The translations under genes and the position numbers were made by a program. A stretch of 8,848 nt of DNA, taken from contig DAOVRJ010000093.1 in assembly GCA_030628225.1 (NCBI GenBank), positions 1 to 8,848 of the forward strand, given 5' to 3'. The notes beneath the pieces are model-generated. The model ran no database searches. It saw only the letters and a list, made by a program, of their open reading frames with translations, and was not told the origin of the DNA. Numbering within the stretch: position 1 is the first letter of the stretch; every line of letters starts with the position of its first letter. This DNA comes from Candidatus Zixiibacteriota bacterium (GTDB lineage Bacteria > SM23-81). Shown piece after piece: positions 3,090-8,339 of the stretch.

Positions 3090-3920
3090 TTACTCCAGAT
3101 ACGGCCGAAGAACTCGGCTGCGGGAGATGTGACGGAGCCGGGAGATGGCCTTATTTCTGATCTGCCGTACGCGCTCACGGGTTAAATTCAGCCGATCCCC
3201 GATCTCCTCTAAGGTCATGGAATCTTCCCGTTCGATGCCGTAATAGTATTTGATCACCTGCGACTCGCGGGGATCCAGTGTATCCAGACTGGTCTTGACC
3301 TGAGAAACCAGGCTGTCCTTCCACAGGCTTCGATCTGGCGCCGGCTGACTGCTGTCTACCAGGAGGCTCTTGAGATCCTCCTTGCTGTCACTTCTCAACG
3401 GAGCGTCCAGAGAAAGGTACACTTTGGAGAGGGCCAGGGCACTGGATACGTTTTCCTCCTCGGTCCCCAGCTTCTTGGCCAACTCCGCACATTTGGGGTC
3501 TCTGTGCAGCTGCTGCTGCAAACGGCTGGACTCCCGCTGAATTTTATGCAGCTGGCCGATCTTATTCTGGGGCAACCTGACGATCCGGGACTGCTTAGCC
3601 AGCGCTGCCAGGATGGCCTGTCTTATCCACCAGACGGCATAGGATATGAATTTGAAACCCTTGGTGCCGTCAAACCGCTTGGCCGCCTCGATCAGCCCCA
3701 CATTGCCCTCGGCCACCAGATCTGCCAGGGACAAGCCCTGACCCTGAAACTGCCTGGCCACGCTGACGACGAAGCGAAGATTTGCCTCCACCAGCTTTTT
3801 CAGGGCCTCGCGATCGCCGCTCTTAATCTGATCGGCAAACTCGGCTTCCTGCTGGGCAGTGATAAGCGGCAGATCTTGTAAATCCCGCAAATACCGTTCA
3901 AATGCCCTTCGATCATCCAT
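3090..3920 (-). CDS. Sigma-70 family RNA polymerase sigma factor (complete, RpoD/RpoS-type)
   Basis: A 276-residue sigma factor directing RNA polymerase to promoters. Visible regions: 1.2 (about 5-35, FERYLRDLQDLPL), 2.1-2.2 (about 43-82, EANLRFVV and DLVAEGNVGLIEA, the core-binding helix), 2.3-2.4 (about 83-117, KFISYAVWWIRQ then RLPQN), region 3 (about 118-175, GQLHKIQRE onward) and region 4 (about 205-266). Region 4 has the region-4.2 helix-turn-helix TLEEIGDRLNLTRERVRQIRNKA. Region 1.1 is absent, typical of a short group-2 sigma rather than a full housekeeping RpoD. Q101 matches sigma70 Q437, while L104 replaces T440. The ATG at 3920 is chosen over the GTG at 3929, which would have GGAGG only 2 bases away; the ATG has GGTGG 5 bases upstream. 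The start overlaps the end of the truncated sigma gene by 8 bases (ATGGATGA), so translation is probably coupled. A terminator follows. Confidence 0.93.
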   Translation of the reverse strand: MDDRRAFERYLRDLQDLPLITAQQEAEFADQIKSGDREALKKLVEANLRFVVSVARQFQGQGLSLADLVAEGNVGLIEAAKRFDGTKGFKFISYAVWWIRQAILAALAKQSRIVRLPQNKIGQLHKIQRESSRLQQQLHRDPKCAELAKKLGTEEENVSSALALSKVYLSLDAPLRSDSKEDLKSLLVDSSQPAPDRSLWKDSLVSQVKTSLDTLDPRESQVIKYYYGIEREDSMTLEEIGDRLNLTRERVRQIRNKAISRLRHISRSRVLRPYLE

Positions 3921-4347
3921 GATAACCACCGCCTCCGCTTCCGAGACTGCCTGACCATTCTTGCCCCTGAGATTGTTTAACTAATGCCATCATGATGGTA
4001 TGTCTGACCCACCAGAGGGCGTAGGAGCGAAAACTAAGACCCTTGCTGCTGTTAAAATACTTGGCCGCTTCAACCAATCCCCGATTCCCCTCATCGATCA
4101 GGTCCTCCATAGATAGCCCATATCCCTGAAATTGCTTGGCGACTTTAACTACAAAGCTAAGATGGGCCTCCACCAATTCTCTCAAGGCCTGGTGATCGCC
4201 CTTTTTAATCTGTTCAGCAAGCATAGCCTCCTCCTTGGGAGATAGGAGTGGCAAATCTTGCACAAACTGCAGATATCGCTGAAATGCTCTGGGGTCATCC
4301 TTTCGGTCTCGTAATTCAACTATCTTGATTGCGGTTGTCTCAAGCAA
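3913..4347 (-). CDS. Truncated sigma-70 paralogue: regions 1.2-2.4 only
   Basis: A 144-residue protein whose residues 17-126 align with the start of the neighbouring complete sigma factor (67 identities in 112 positions by hand count). It keeps region 1.2 (AFQRYLQFVQDLPL), the core-binding region 2.2 (DLIDEGNRGLVEA, 82-94) and region 2.3 (FRSYALWWVRH, 106-116). It departs from the family straight after KQS (124-126) and ends in an unrelated glycine-rich tail (127-144) encoded by the ribosome-binding region of the next gene. Regions 3 and 4 are missing. Several conserved residues differ: the usual NLR is HLS (62-64), sigma70 Q437 is H116 and T440 is M119. The start is weak: TTG at 4347 with only AAGAG upstream and an in-frame TAA at 4357-4359. 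It may be a deletion-derived pseudogene or a functional half-sigma; B. subtilis RsoA shows that region-2-only sigma subunits exist. Confidence 0.75.
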   Translation of the reverse strand: MLETTAIKIVELRDRKDDPRAFQRYLQFVQDLPLLSPKEEAMLAEQIKKGDHQALRELVEAHLSFVVKVAKQFQGYGLSMEDLIDEGNRGLVEAAKYFNSSKGLSFRSYALWWVRHTIMMALVKQSQGQEWSGSLGSGGGGYHG

Positions 4348-4375
4348 TTTGGGCTCTTACCCCCGTCGTTGAAGA

Positions 4376-4450
4376 TCACTTTGTTCGCAGGGCGCGAGTG
4401 ATGTGACATCGGGCAATATTATCGAAAAAGTGCAGCTTAACCCTGACCAT
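4376..4450 (-). pseudogene. Remnant of a second HTH-TPR regulator gene (3' end only)
   Basis: On the minus strand this stretch reads in frame to ...DNIARCHITRALRTK and a TGA stop at 4376-4378. It matches the last residues of the intact regulator at 6322-6873 (EVARYHITRALRTK, then TAA). At DNA level 4386-4414 and 6332-6360 agree at 26 of 29 bases, including 17 consecutive bases. Upstream of the matching part the reading frame stays open to an ATG at 4450 but similarity fades. There is no helix-turn-helix and no intact TPR, so this is a tail fragment lying between the surface-protein gene and the truncated sigma gene. Confidence 0.6.
4386..4414. repeat. Left copy of direct repeat flanking the surface-protein gene
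   Basis: It shares CGCAGGGCGCGAGTGAT (4386-4402) exactly with 6332-6348 and matches 26 of 29 bases over 4386-4414 versus 6332-6360. The two copies are in the same orientation, 1,946 bases apart, and encode the same protein end (ARxHITRALR). Confidence 0.75.
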
Positions 4451-4499: not shown

Positions 4500-6245
4500 T
4501 TACCGCAGCAAAACCATCTTCCGTGTTCTAACAAAATCCGCCGACTGAAAATGGATAAAATAAACTCCGGACGGCAGGATTACATCTCGGCTGTCTTTGC
4601 CGTCCCATTTGATCTCATATTCGCCACCGGAAAAGGCTTCGTCGTATAACGTTTTAACCAATTGCCCCAGGCTGTTGAATATTACCAGTTTTACCTGCTT
4701 CAATTCTGATCCTGTCGTCGGGACGTCAAAACGGATGGTGGTTTCCGGGTTAAAAGGATTGGGATAATTGGGATAAAGTGCAAACTTTCCCGGTAATTCT
4801 TTGCTGGCGGTAATTGAGATTGTTTGGTGATAGGTGATAATCCCGCTATAATTGCGGTTTGCTAAACGGTAGTAGTAAGTTTTGCCGGCAGTTACATTCT
4901 GATCTACGAATTCATATTCATGGCCTTTGCTGCTGCTACCCTGTCCGCAAATTTGAGCAATTTGAACATAATCTTCGTTATCTTCACTGCGTTCTAACAG
5001 AAATGCCTCGTTGTTTATCTCCGATCCGGTCGTCCATTTGAGAGTAACCTGCCCGTTGCCGGCTATGGCAGTGAAAGAGGAAAGCTCGATCGGTAATGGA
5101 TTATCACCTGCATCACCAATTGAATACTGACTGAATTCTGTTACCCCTGTCCTGGAAAACGTTCTACTTCCAGTATCATGGGTATAATCGGAAGTTATAT
5201 CTGTCCAAGGGCTAACGGCATCTGCACGTTTTAGAAGATGAATAGCACCGGGAACGGTTATTCCCCCAATTCCACTGTAATCAAATACCACATCTGCAGT
5301 GACACTGCCGGTTTCCTCGATACCCCAAATAACATCTGAGCGATGAGTGATGCTGCCGGGGAAAGTTTCTCCGGTTACATCGCTGCTTCCATCACCGGTC
5401 TTGGAAAGGGTCAGATAGTTCGGAGGATCGCCGCCTTCGCTGATCGAAACCCGAACCTGCTGACCCGAAGCTCCGGCAGTTTCAGTCGTTCTGAAAACCC
5501 TTTCCCCCCCGTAAGCAGTACCTTTAGAATTTGTTGCATAAGCTCGCAGGTAATATGTAGTCGCCCCTGTTAAACCTGTAACAGAAGATGTAAAAACCCC
5601 TGTTCCAGCGCCGTCGCTGGTAAGAGAATCCAAGATAGTGGGACTTCCTGTTGTATTCCAGCAAACTCCGCGCACCGAGACCACATCTCCCCCATCGGAG
5701 GTGACATTGCCGCCGCAACTCGCTGTCGTGGTCGTAACAGCTGAAACAGCGGAGGTGGTCACCGTGGGAGTTGTGGCTGGACCTGTGTATGAGATATCAT
5801 CAATCAGTAAAGCTGTTGAACCAATAGCTGCATATAATTGGTCAATATTGTTCCAGTTCAAAACAAGCTGCTGGAATGTTGTAGTAATTACACCTGCAGG
5901 ATAGGTTTCACTGTAAATTTCAGAGCCATCACGATAGCCTTTTACATAAACCGTATAATTTGAACCGCCATAAAGTCTTACCCACATACTGGAGATACTG
6001 AACTCGTCTCCGCTTGCCAGGCCTAGCCGGCCCCCATTGGCCAGCATATACTTGGTACCGCTGTGCGCGTATCCGCTCAGGTTACCGAACCAGTTATTGC
6101 CGGTGATGTCCCAATCATATCCGTCTTCACTGAATTTCGTCTCACCTATGGTAACGGTTTCAAAACCCAGTTCGTGGGCAGGGGCAGAGGTTGAAAAAGC
6201 TACCATGGGTATCAGCATGAAAATGACAGCTACAGTCTTTTTCAT
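4500..6245 (-). CDS. Secreted surface protein with fibronectin-like domains and T9SS sorting domain
   Basis: A 581-residue exported protein. Residues 1-24 form a Sec signal peptide (MKK, hydrophobic core, cleavage near SAPAHE). Residues about 26-155 are a beta-rich, possibly ligand-binding N-terminal domain ending in LLIDDISYTG. Residues about 160-254 form a threonine-rich fibronectin-III-like domain with the familiar RGVCWNTTGSPT and TTYYLRAYATNSKGTAYG. Residues about 262-380 are a further beta-rich domain ending in EFSQYSIGD. Residues about 385-480 are a second fibronectin-like module (LSSFTAIAGNGQVTLKWTT ... KTYYYRL). Residues about 487-581 are the type A sorting domain with YPNYPNPFNPETTI, GQLVKTLY and LPSGVYFIHF. 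T9SS substrates are exported across the outer membrane and often surface-attached; no catalytic motif is seen, so adhesion or matrix binding is inferred. The start is firm: GGAGGAAAGGAGGAAAGG directly precedes the ATG at 6245. It follows the HTH-TPR gene after 76 bases and is bracketed by a direct repeat. Confidence 0.88.
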   Translation of the reverse strand: MKKTVAVIFMLIPMVAFSTSAPAHELGFETVTIGETKFSEDGYDWDITGNNWFGNLSGYAHSGTKYMLANGGRLGLASGDEFSISSMWVRLYGGSNYTVYVKGYRDGSEIYSETYPAGVITTTFQQLVLNWNNIDQLYAAIGSTALLIDDISYTGPATTPTVTTSAVSAVTTTTASCGGNVTSDGGDVVSVRGVCWNTTGSPTILDSLTSDGAGTGVFTSSVTGLTGATTYYLRAYATNSKGTAYGGERVFRTTETAGASGQQVRVSISEGGDPPNYLTLSKTGDGSSDVTGETFPGSITHRSDVIWGIEETGSVTADVVFDYSGIGGITVPGAIHLLKRADAVSPWTDITSDYTHDTGSRTFSRTGVTEFSQYSIGDAGDNPLPIELSSFTAIAGNGQVTLKWTTGSEINNEAFLLERSEDNEDYVQIAQICGQGSSSKGHEYEFVDQNVTAGKTYYYRLANRNYSGIITYHQTISITASKELPGKFALYPNYPNPFNPETTIRFDVPTTGSELKQVKLVIFNSLGQLVKTLYDEAFSGGEYEIKWDGKDSRDVILPSGVYFIHFQSADFVRTRKMVLLR

Positions 6246-6321
6246 CCTTTCCTCCTTTCCTCCAAAGTCTTGGACGGCTTTATGAACTTCTAACCCTTAC
6301 TCTTGTTCCCTCGTGAAAAGT

Positions 6322-6873
6322 TTACTTGGTACGCAGGGCGCGAGTGATATGATAGCGGGCCACCTCGGCCAGGTCAGAGCTCCTGTCGATATTCACGACC
6401 TGGCGCCACATCTCCAACGCCCGATCTCGCTTTTGCATCTCCTGGTAAAGCAACCCCAGAAAAAGATACGCAGCACTATCTCTGGGCCGGGATTCCAGTA
6501 TCTTCCGGTAGTATCCCTCAGCCTCATCGTATCGAGCCAGCCTACTGGCCGTAAGAGCCTTGATGTAAAGCGACCTCACCTGGTTAGGCACGTCCCGCAA
6601 AACCTCATCGGCCAGATCTTCAGCCCGCTCGAGACGGTCAGTATTGTCCTTGGGGTGAGGGCTCTTTTTATGCTCAGTGATCTCTGTTTCGCTATGCGGC
6701 CCCAGGCGACAGGCCTCTAAAAACTCCTCCAGGGCCTCTTGTTTAAAACGGTACCGGCTGGCGATCCGGTAAGCGTTAATCTTGTGGCTCTTGATGTAAC
6801 GACGCAAGGTTACCGTGCTTATTCCCAGGAACTTAGCTGCTTCCCGTATGGTATACCATTTCTCCCGCGTCAC
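6322..6873 (-). CDS. Helix-turn-helix (excisionase-type) regulator fused to TPR repeats
   Basis: A 183-residue cytoplasmic protein. Residues 6-55 form a winged-helix DNA-binding domain of the excisionase/MerR kind (YTIREAAKFLGIS, TLRRYIKS, then YRFKQEALEEFL). A charged linker (about 57-78) leads to tetratricopeptide-like helices at about 80-180, with clear TPR consensus in ARYDEAEGYYRKILESRPRD (113-132) and AAYLFLGLLYQEMQKRDRALEMW (134-156). The HTH should bind DNA and the TPRs a protein partner, suggesting a scaffold-type regulator; the target is unknown. I prefer the GTG at 6873, preceded by GGAG with 7-base spacing and giving MTREKWYTIREAA, over an upstream TTG at 6894 with no ribosome-binding site. 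It is the first gene after a near-perfect sigma70 promoter and leads the unit containing the surface protein and sigma genes. Part of its 3' end is duplicated at 4376-4450. Confidence 0.83.
   Translation of the reverse strand: MTREKWYTIREAAKFLGISTVTLRRYIKSHKINAYRIASRYRFKQEALEEFLEACRLGPHSETEITEHKKSPHPKDNTDRLERAEDLADEVLRDVPNQVRSLYIKALTASRLARYDEAEGYYRKILESRPRDSAAYLFLGLLYQEMQKRDRALEMWRQVVNIDRSSDLAEVARYHITRALRTK
6332..6360. repeat. Right copy of direct repeat flanking the surface-protein gene
   Basis: Partner of 4386-4414 (26/29 identical), lying inside the last codons of the HTH-TPR gene. Recombination between the copies would remove the surface-protein gene and leave the regulator with an intact, nearly identical C-terminus (Y to C at one residue). 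Confidence 0.75.
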
Positions 6874-6908
6874 CGAACATCTCCAGAATATCAATAGTTA
6901 TCTTTCGT

Positions 6909-6925: not shown

Positions 6926-6954
6926 ATTATAAAAGGTTGTCCCTCTTTTGTCAA
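6926..6954 (-). promoter_or_regulatory. Consensus sigma70 promoter of the HTH-TPR operon
   Basis: On the minus strand TTGACA (6954-6949), a 17-base spacer and TATAAT (6931-6926) match the bacterial consensus at all twelve positions. Upstream (about 6955-6986) lie A-rich tracts of up to nine adenines on the minus strand, a likely UP element. Transcription should start near 6919, about 46 bases before the GTG start codon. Confidence 0.9.
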
Positions 6955-7200: not shown

Positions 7201-7896
7201 ATGTTCAGCAAAATCATCCTGGATATAGAAACTGCCGGTGTCGACTGGGACACCCTGCCAGAAGATACGCAGAACTATCTTCTTAAGCGTGCAGAGTCAG
7301 AGAAAGATGTGCAAAAGACCAAAAGCATCATCGGCCTTTGGGCTCCCTTATCCAAAGTGGTGGTCATCGGTCTGCTCAATCCGGTCAGCAACAAGGCCAT
7401 GATCCTCTCCCAGGGATCACCCGATGAAACTCCGGCAGAGAGCCAACAAGGCGAGATCTCCGTCTCCAATTTCCGCGGCGACGAGGCGACCATCCTGACC
7501 AGGTTCTGGGAGCTAATCCCCAGTTTCAACCACTACATCACATTCAATGGAAAGGGGTTCGACTGCCCCTTCCTGATGCTCCGCTCCCTGATCCTGGGCA
7601 TCACCCCCACCCGCAACCTGGACACACGACGGTACAGCGTTAAACCTCATTGCGACCTGTTGGAGGTGCTGTCTTTTTTTGGGGCAACTCGCAAGTTCAC
7701 CCTTCAGTTCTGGTGCCAAACCCTGGGCATCGAGGATCCCAAGACCAAGTTCGGGGATGGATCGCATGTTCAGGAGGCCTACAAGGAGGGAAGGATCGAG
7801 GATATCATCGAGTATAACCTGGCCGATCTGGTGGCCACGGCCCGTCTGTACCAGATGGTGGATGAGCATTTGCTGAGTGTCTGGGATAAGAGGTGA
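7201..7896 (+). CDS. DEDDy-type 3'-5' exonuclease (PolB-like / RNase H-like fold)
   Basis: A 231-residue stand-alone nuclease of the family annotated as predicted 3'-5' exonuclease related to the proofreading domain of PolB. These enzymes remove nucleotides from 3' ends using two metal ions. The catalytic motifs are all present: Exo I LDIETAG with D8 and E10, Exo II FNGKGFDCPFL with D121, and Exo III YNLADLVAT with Y205 and D209. No polymerase or helicase domain is attached, so it probably acts in DNA repair or RNA trimming; the substrate cannot be read from sequence. The ATG at 7201 is preferred because GGGAGG lies 7 bases upstream; an upstream in-frame ATG at 7132 has no ribosome-binding site and adds an atypical His-rich stretch. 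It is transcribed divergently from the HTH-TPR operon and is followed by a non-coding repeat island. Confidence 0.88.
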   Translation: MFSKIILDIETAGVDWDTLPEDTQNYLLKRAESEKDVQKTKSIIGLWAPLSKVVVIGLLNPVSNKAMILSQGSPDETPAESQQGEISVSNFRGDEATILTRFWELIPSFNHYITFNGKGFDCPFLMLRSLILGITPTRNLDTRRYSVKPHCDLLEVLSFFGATRKFTLQFWCQTLGIEDPKTKFGDGSHVQEAYKEGRIEDIIEYNLADLVATARLYQMVDEHLLSVWDKR

Positions 7897-7951
7897 GTTT
7901 AGAGAGTTGAGCGAGTTTGGAGAGTTAAGAGAGTTGAGAGTTCGGAGCGCG
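7896..7951. repeat. GAGAGTT-type imperfect tandem repeats
   Basis: Directly after the exonuclease stop, units such as GAGTTTAGAGAGTTGAGC, GAGTTTGGAGAGTTAAGA and GAGTTGAGAGTT recur. It is low-complexity, purine-rich DNA with no coding signal. Confidence 0.6.
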
Positions 7952-7993
7952 GAACTGGGAGTGCGGAGTGCCACCCCATTCCACCACCCCAGT

Positions 7994-8021
7994 AAGCAGT
8001 CGGCAGGAAGCAGTTGGCAGA
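7994..8021. repeat. 14-base tandem repeat, two copies
   Basis: AAGCAGTCGGCAGG (7994-8007) is followed directly by AAGCAGTTGGCAGA (8008-8021), 12 of 14 bases identical. Confidence 0.7.
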
Positions 8022-8035
8022 AATTGAAATGCAAG

Positions 8036-8066
8036 ATGAAAAATGCAAAATGAAAAATGCAAAATG
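8036..8066. repeat. A-rich 14-base tandem repeat, two full copies and a partial one
   Basis: ATGAAAAATGCAAA occurs perfectly at 8036-8049 and 8050-8063 and continues with ATG. A degenerate partial copy precedes it (GAAATGCAAG, 8026-8035). Confidence 0.75.
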
Positions 8067-8125
8067 TGAATGGCAGTTGAACGCTGTTTTTACGAGTCTC
8101 GAGTCTCGGTCTTTCAGAGGGGGTA

Positions 8126-8248
8126 GCGGAAGACCGCGAGGCTGGCGGCCGGCCGAACGGGAGAGTGAGGACGGCATGGCCGCAGGCCATAGCCAGCCGG
8201 TGGCGCAAAGCGCCACGCGGGCTGAAGCGAGGGGGAGCCCTCCCCCTC
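8126..8248. repeat. Cluster of consecutive GC-rich hairpins (palindromic element or structured RNA)
   Basis: Within 123 bases lie: GCGG-AAGA-CCGC (8126-8137); ATGGCC-GCA-GGCCAT (8176-8190); CAGCC ... GTGGCGC-AAA-GCGCCAC ... GGCTG (8194-8224); and GAGGGGGA-GCCC-TCCCCCTC (8229-8248). GGCTGGC (8140-8146) also pairs perfectly with GCCAGCC (8192-8198), which could enclose the second hairpin or compete with the third. No T run follows on either strand in terminator position. It may be a REP-like or mobile palindromic element, or a folded RNA; orientation cannot be decided. Confidence 0.55.
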
Positions 8249-8274
8249 AAAAACATCATTTCAAATTGCAAAGT

Positions 8275-8298
8275 GCAAATTTTAAATTGTAAATTTGC
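8275..8298. repeat. AT-rich inverted repeat
   Basis: GCAAATTT (8275-8282) and AAATTTGC (8291-8298) are perfect inverted repeats with an 8-base loop, within an A/T-rich stretch (8259-8297) made of variants of AAATTGCAAA. Confidence 0.5.
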
Positions 8299-8320
8299 CC
8301 TTCCCCCACACTCTACCCCA

Positions 8321-8339
8321 GGGCGAGGGAACCTCGCCC
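8321..8339. repeat. GGGCGAGG palindrome
   Basis: GGGCGAGG-GAA-CCTCGCCC forms a perfect 8-bp stem with a 3-base loop and lies about 30 bases from the terminator of the next gene. No T run follows on either strand, so it looks like an interspersed palindromic repeat rather than a terminator. Confidence 0.55.

Follow-up and report, generated by a model that had tools for sequence, protein, structure and literature searches.

The window, i.e., the whole stretch of 8,848 nucleotides analyzed here, is one complete contig (C157) of a 2.34-Mb assembly that comprises 306 contigs and is 92% complete. Its minus strand carries, in this order, the gene of a helix-turn-helix and TPR protein (HTH-TPR), an extra gene whose product ends in a T9SS-type tail, a 43-bp copy of the HTH-TPR 3' end, a short sigma reading frame (half-sigma) and the gene of a complete sigma factor (full sigma) (Table 1). 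Outside these features, positions 7890-8330 form a non-coding dispersed repeat. More than 40 strong copies, matching parts of it at about 75-98% identity, are spread through the assembly, and the position of several at contig ends may be why the assembly is fragmented.

Table 1. Features of the sigma factor locus in window coordinates
Feature	Position	Strand	Details
Promoter-like TTGACA-17-TATAAT	6926..6954	-	12/12 match; upstream of HTH-TPR
HTH-TPR protein	6322..6894	-	HTH_17/excisionase-type helix-turn-helix plus TPR; directly before full sigma in the nearest relative, 70% identity
Extra gene, 581-aa protein	4500..6245	-	T9SS-type/FlgD-like C-terminal sorting tail; no counterpart at the locus of the nearest relative
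Copy of HTH-TPR 3' end, 43 bp	4372..4414	-	ARCHITRALRTK*; 84% identical to 6318-6360
Half-sigma ORF, 144 codons, TTG start	3913..4347	-	regions 1.2-2.4 (residues 17-127) and a 17-residue non-homologous tail
Possible shorter product, 103 aa	3913..4224	-	region 2 only; internal ATG (residue 42) behind AAGGAGGAGGCT; candidate from sequence
Overlap of half-sigma stop and full-sigma ATG, 8 nt	3913..3920	-	ATGGATGA; from sequence
Full sigma, 276 aa	3090..3920	-	from ATG 3920 (GTG 3929 possible); regions 1.2, 2, 3 and 4 (Pfam); ortholog in the nearest relative

Half-sigma and its overlap with full sigma

Half-sigma matches the Pfam families Sigma70_r1_2 (E 6.8e-6, 26.4 bits, cut-off 22) and Sigma70_r2 (E 2.2e-17, 63 bits, cut-off 24), and with both scores above the cut-offs it is a member of the sigma-70 region 1.2-2 domain. 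Sigma70 regions 3 and 4 were not found in it by Pfam, hence it does not combine regions 2 and 4 as a complete sigma-70 does. Regions 1.2-2.4 of full sigma, an RpoS/RpoD-like factor, and of its ortholog in G001, the nearest relative, align gap-free to half-sigma over 111 residues with 60-61% identity (67/111 residues for full sigma) and a clade support of 95; full sigma and the G001 protein are identical at 103/111 of these positions. The homology ceases at KQS(Q), residue 126-127. Compared with full sigma, half-sigma thus lacks regions 3-4, ends in an unrelated tail and is altered at many of the residues that contact promoter or core. The 111 homologous codons are open, with no stop and no indel, and the tail is likewise unbroken. 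Half-sigma is unique in sequence within the 92%-complete assembly, where no other protein was found to have region 2 but lack region 4. The original prediction of a 144-residue protein with regions 1.2-2.4, whose likeness to the full copy ends after KQS and whose frame overlaps the full-sigma start by 8 nt, was therefore borne out by the ORF and its two Pfam matches, and a chance frame is excluded.

The TTG start of half-sigma (4347) is preceded by GGGGGT, a mediocre Shine-Dalgarno sequence. The best-looking start in the ORF is the ATG at 4224, with a near-ideal AAGGAGG at a spacing of about 5 nt, which arose at a position where full sigma has Glu. At the other end, the stop codon (TGA, 3915-3913) overlaps the full-sigma ATG (3920) by 8 nt and the possible GTG start (3929) by 17 nt. 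A GGAGG lies ~11 nt upstream of the full-sigma ATG within the half-sigma tail, in agreement with the earlier proposal that half-sigma runs through the ribosome-binding region of full sigma. Ribosomes translating the tail would therefore finish on the full-sigma start, and, judged from this arrangement, translational coupling of half-sigma to full sigma is plausible. The promoter-like TTGACA/TATAAT pair upstream of HTH-TPR recurs at the equivalent place in G001, where HTH-TPR precedes the sigma gene. Half-sigma is probably co-transcribed with full sigma in a single putative operon; overall, the promoter and terminator scans gave no more matches than shuffles.

The inserted block and related genomes

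The comparison set consisted of four genomes of the phylum, among which G001, from the same family and another genus, is the nearest. There, the exonuclease, HTH-TPR and full-sigma genes are contiguous and in the same order, with the HTH-TPR stop ~100 bp from the sigma start, and no half-sigma, T9SS gene or second HTH-TPR end is present at the locus. Half-sigma was also absent from the other sigma matches in G001. Related sigmas are present in the remaining two genomes, but in other gene contexts. Half-sigma occurs in one of the four genomes only. The truncated-plus-full arrangement, which had been suggested as something to look for in relatives, was thus absent from the other three, and G001 has the full-length sigma alone.

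Relatives of half-sigma were also sought in other sequences. Among the matches listed from 98 genomes, there was no other short relative save one frame of 193 aa (in G047), which was rejected as a second half-sigma because it runs into a contig end. Viral contigs yielded no relatives, a search of genome contigs retrieved only a Treponema sigma region with 47% identity, and a literature search for truncated sigma paralogs returned nothing on point. The HTH-TPR gene accompanies this sigma in two genera, that of this genome and that of G001; the remaining two genomes of the set yielded no strong relative of it.

Relative to G001, the window contains an additional ~2.4 kb made up of the T9SS-tail gene, the 43-bp copy of the HTH-TPR 3' end and half-sigma. 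Since the block holds pieces of both neighbors in direct orientation, we infer that a further copy of this locus was its source. The block has a lower GC content, and GC3 is 0.53 in half-sigma versus 0.68 in full sigma. Third codon positions differ at 50 of 111 codons between half-sigma and full sigma, at 56 between half-sigma and the G001 sigma, and at 42 between full sigma and the G001 sigma; for the HTH-TPR 3' piece, the three pairings of the copy, the window gene and the G001 gene show 6, 5 and 7 differences in 39 positions. Both half-sigma and the HTH-TPR piece are therefore about equally distant from the window and G001 genes (star-like), and the block is not a recent local copy. It may stem from an old duplication that G001 has since lost, or it may have been imported from a third, related lineage; the three possible groupings of half-sigma, full sigma and the G001 sigma are within 2.5 lnL of each other and are not separated by the codon likelihoods.

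This composition also bears on the breakpoint, which the original prediction took for one clean in-frame deletion of the end of the first copy. Such a deletion is not demonstrated: the 17 codons of the tail do not recognizably resemble the leader of the G001 sigma, and an extra gene and a second duplicated piece, the HTH-TPR 3' end, stand upstream of half-sigma. The extra gene places a protein with a T9SS-type sorting tail within a regulatory operon; this protein has about 70 matching places in the genome, mostly via its tail.

Constraint, contact residues and predicted fold

Half-sigma and full sigma differ at 36, 19 and 50 sites at codon positions 1, 2 and 3, versus 9, 4 and 42 between full sigma and the G001 sigma. 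Positions 1 and 2 therefore show four to five times more change in the half-sigma comparison while silent change is similar. Codon maximum likelihood with three sequences gave an omega (dN/dS) of 0.35 (95% interval about 0.17-0.69) on the half-sigma branch, a value averaged over any full-length period and the period since truncation, versus 0.045 elsewhere. Equal omega was rejected with 2dlnL values of 15.9 (three sequences) and 21.6 (with outgroups), and strong relaxation of constraint, or acceleration of replacement change, in half-sigma is secure. An omega of 1 on the half-sigma branch was rejected in the three-sequence model (2dlnL 7.6), whereas with outgroups, and half-sigma branching outside full sigma and the G001 sigma, neutrality was not rejected (2dlnL 0.76), as saturation at silent sites lets the model move silent change to the other branch. 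The dN/dS comparison called for in the original prediction thus brought out strong relaxation, and residual purifying selection, with neutrality rejected in one model but not in the other, may persist but is not secure.

The 33 polarized replacements on the half-sigma branch fall at 5/26, 8/30, 13/35 and 7/20 sites of the four conservation classes (permutation p=0.12), i.e., they are spread almost evenly across conserved and variable sites. With omega above that of the orthologs and replacements little tied to conservation, half-sigma has the pattern of a partial duplicate under relaxed constraint. As to the marks of a pseudogene, it has neither a stop nor a frameshift, and omega=1 is rejected in the three-sequence model only. 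The chance that a frame stays free of stops under neutral change giving 33-44 replacements is about 0.09-0.14, with indels ignored.

We then mapped these changes onto known contact positions. Residues were numbered by alignment with the sigma70 sequence, which served for numbering only. Promoter -10-contact positions are changed in 10/18 cases versus 23/93 at other positions (Fisher p=0.012), which is indicative only because the contact list was drawn partly from general knowledge and partly from published work (PMC4496690, PMC10216364). The changed contacts include the equivalents of sigma70 N383, R385, E420, S428 and Q437, which are conserved in 94-100% of other sigmas; the aromatic melting residues, equivalent to F427, Y430, W433 and W434, are retained. 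Loss of function does not follow from single changes, since sigma32 itself has His at the N383 position. Three of six beta' clamp contacts are also changed, namely A to D at the Q406 position, V to R at the I410 position and I to V at the M413 position, and the D403, E407 and N409 equivalents are kept. Residue 89, the I410 equivalent (V89R), is I, L, M or V in all 33 other sigmas compared; the corresponding I84 of sigma32 is given as a beta' clamp-helix contact, and the listed sigma32 interface residues are the equivalents of D403, E407, I410 and M413 (PMC10216364). The earlier description of the core-binding helix DLIDEGN as intact is therefore only partly right: the motif is there, but the residue that follows is Arg 89 and the three changed positions belong to the same interface.

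AlphaFold predicted a confident sigma-2 fold for half-sigma, with a pLDDT of about 96 over the domain (such models being insensitive to point changes or damage) and a disordered tail. The best PDB match of the model was sigmaS (5ipl).

Origin and possible roles of half-sigma

We favor, with a probability of roughly 0.6, the reading that half-sigma is a partial extra sigma copy that has lost most of its constraint. The block between the HTH-TPR and sigma genes would be the product of an old duplication or have been imported from a related lineage, and half-sigma would probably no longer work as a regulator. Most likely, it shares an operon transcript with full sigma, and its translation, where it occurs, would mainly bring ribosomes to the overlapping full-sigma start. 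A partial leftover copy is favored because the nearest relative lacks half-sigma and the constraint is strongly relaxed. Among the roles proposed earlier, i.e., a competitor for core polymerase, an assistant of full sigma or a decaying copy that couples translation, the same two observations favor the third, whereas an RsoA-like assistant lacks an orphan region-4 partner; full neutrality and decay of the frame are not shown for a protein with 111 open codons and a predicted sigma-2 fold. Relatives with only a full-length sigma, or neutral substitution and stop codons in relatives, had been named as grounds against the original prediction; one of these largely applies, given the G001 locus and the strongly relaxed constraint. 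On present evidence, half-sigma appears to be a partial sigma copy that is losing constraint with its frame still open, an ordinary event.

It is quite unlikely that half-sigma is a pseudogene fragment evolving in full neutrality, with neither translation nor coupling. The even spread of replacements and the model with outgroups would suit such a fragment, but the frame is open without an indel through the homologous codons and the tail, and the three-sequence model rejects omega=1. That the arrangement is an artefact of assembly or binning is the least probable explanation; it comes from a single fragmented assembly with many dispersed repeats, yet the contig and G001 agree in genes and gene order to either side of the block, half-sigma is unique in the assembly, and the block junctions lie away from the dispersed repeat.

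It is tempting to speculate that half-sigma is instead a region-2-only sigma derivative, co-expressed with its full-length paralog via the overlapping stop and start, that has shed its promoter contacts and restrains the pathway of this sigma as an inbuilt brake or acts on it as a mimic, although we regard this as unlikely. If functional, it would add a third type of stand-alone sigma region 2 to RsoA and the sigma-like domain of PhyR, one whose operon partner is a paralogous full sigma. In domain content, half-sigma resembles Bacillus subtilis RsoA, which has a sigma region-2-like domain only (PMC8103513, PMC10028694) and works with SigO, and the possible 103-aa product from ATG 4224 adds to this likeness. 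Unlike RsoA, half-sigma precedes a full-length paralog and its promoter-contact residues are degenerate, being the most changed of all. The separately encoded region-4 partner of a SigO-RsoA pair was not found in the assembly, where all Sigma70_r4 matches are in ORFs with their own region 2 except one in a LuxR-type response regulator, a false positive on another contig (C97). As no true region-4 protein was found to lack a region 2, a two-subunit sigma of the SigO-RsoA kind, with half-sigma as the region-2 subunit, is unsupported and highly improbable, even allowing for a partner absent from this 92%-complete assembly.

With its predicted sigma fold kept and its promoter and core contacts degenerate, half-sigma matches the description of the PhyR sigma-like domain (PMC8103513), and it could by analogy titrate an anti-sigma or another sigma-2-binding regulator, as that domain does NepR. 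This is very unlikely: in contrast to PhyR, half-sigma is not fused to a receiver domain, its fold is primary-like (regions 1.2-2.4) rather than ECF-type, no anti-sigma partner is known for it, no candidate anti-sigma factor for full sigma was seen in the window, and it occurs in a single genome. A decoy or competitor, which would occupy the beta' clamp helices without -35 recognition and tune the output of the co-expressed full sigma, is unlikely as well, given the three changed core contacts, one of them radical (V to R), the strongly relaxed constraint and the presence of half-sigma in one genome only. The D403, E407 and N409 equivalents and the predicted fold would be compatible with such a role, as would the greater change at DNA-contact positions than in the remainder and the overlap with full sigma, which would tie the expression of both. 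In addition, a fragment of this extent can be a stable protein, since a sigmaA fragment comprising regions 1.2-2.4 has been crystallized and binds the non-template -10 strand (PMC4496690).
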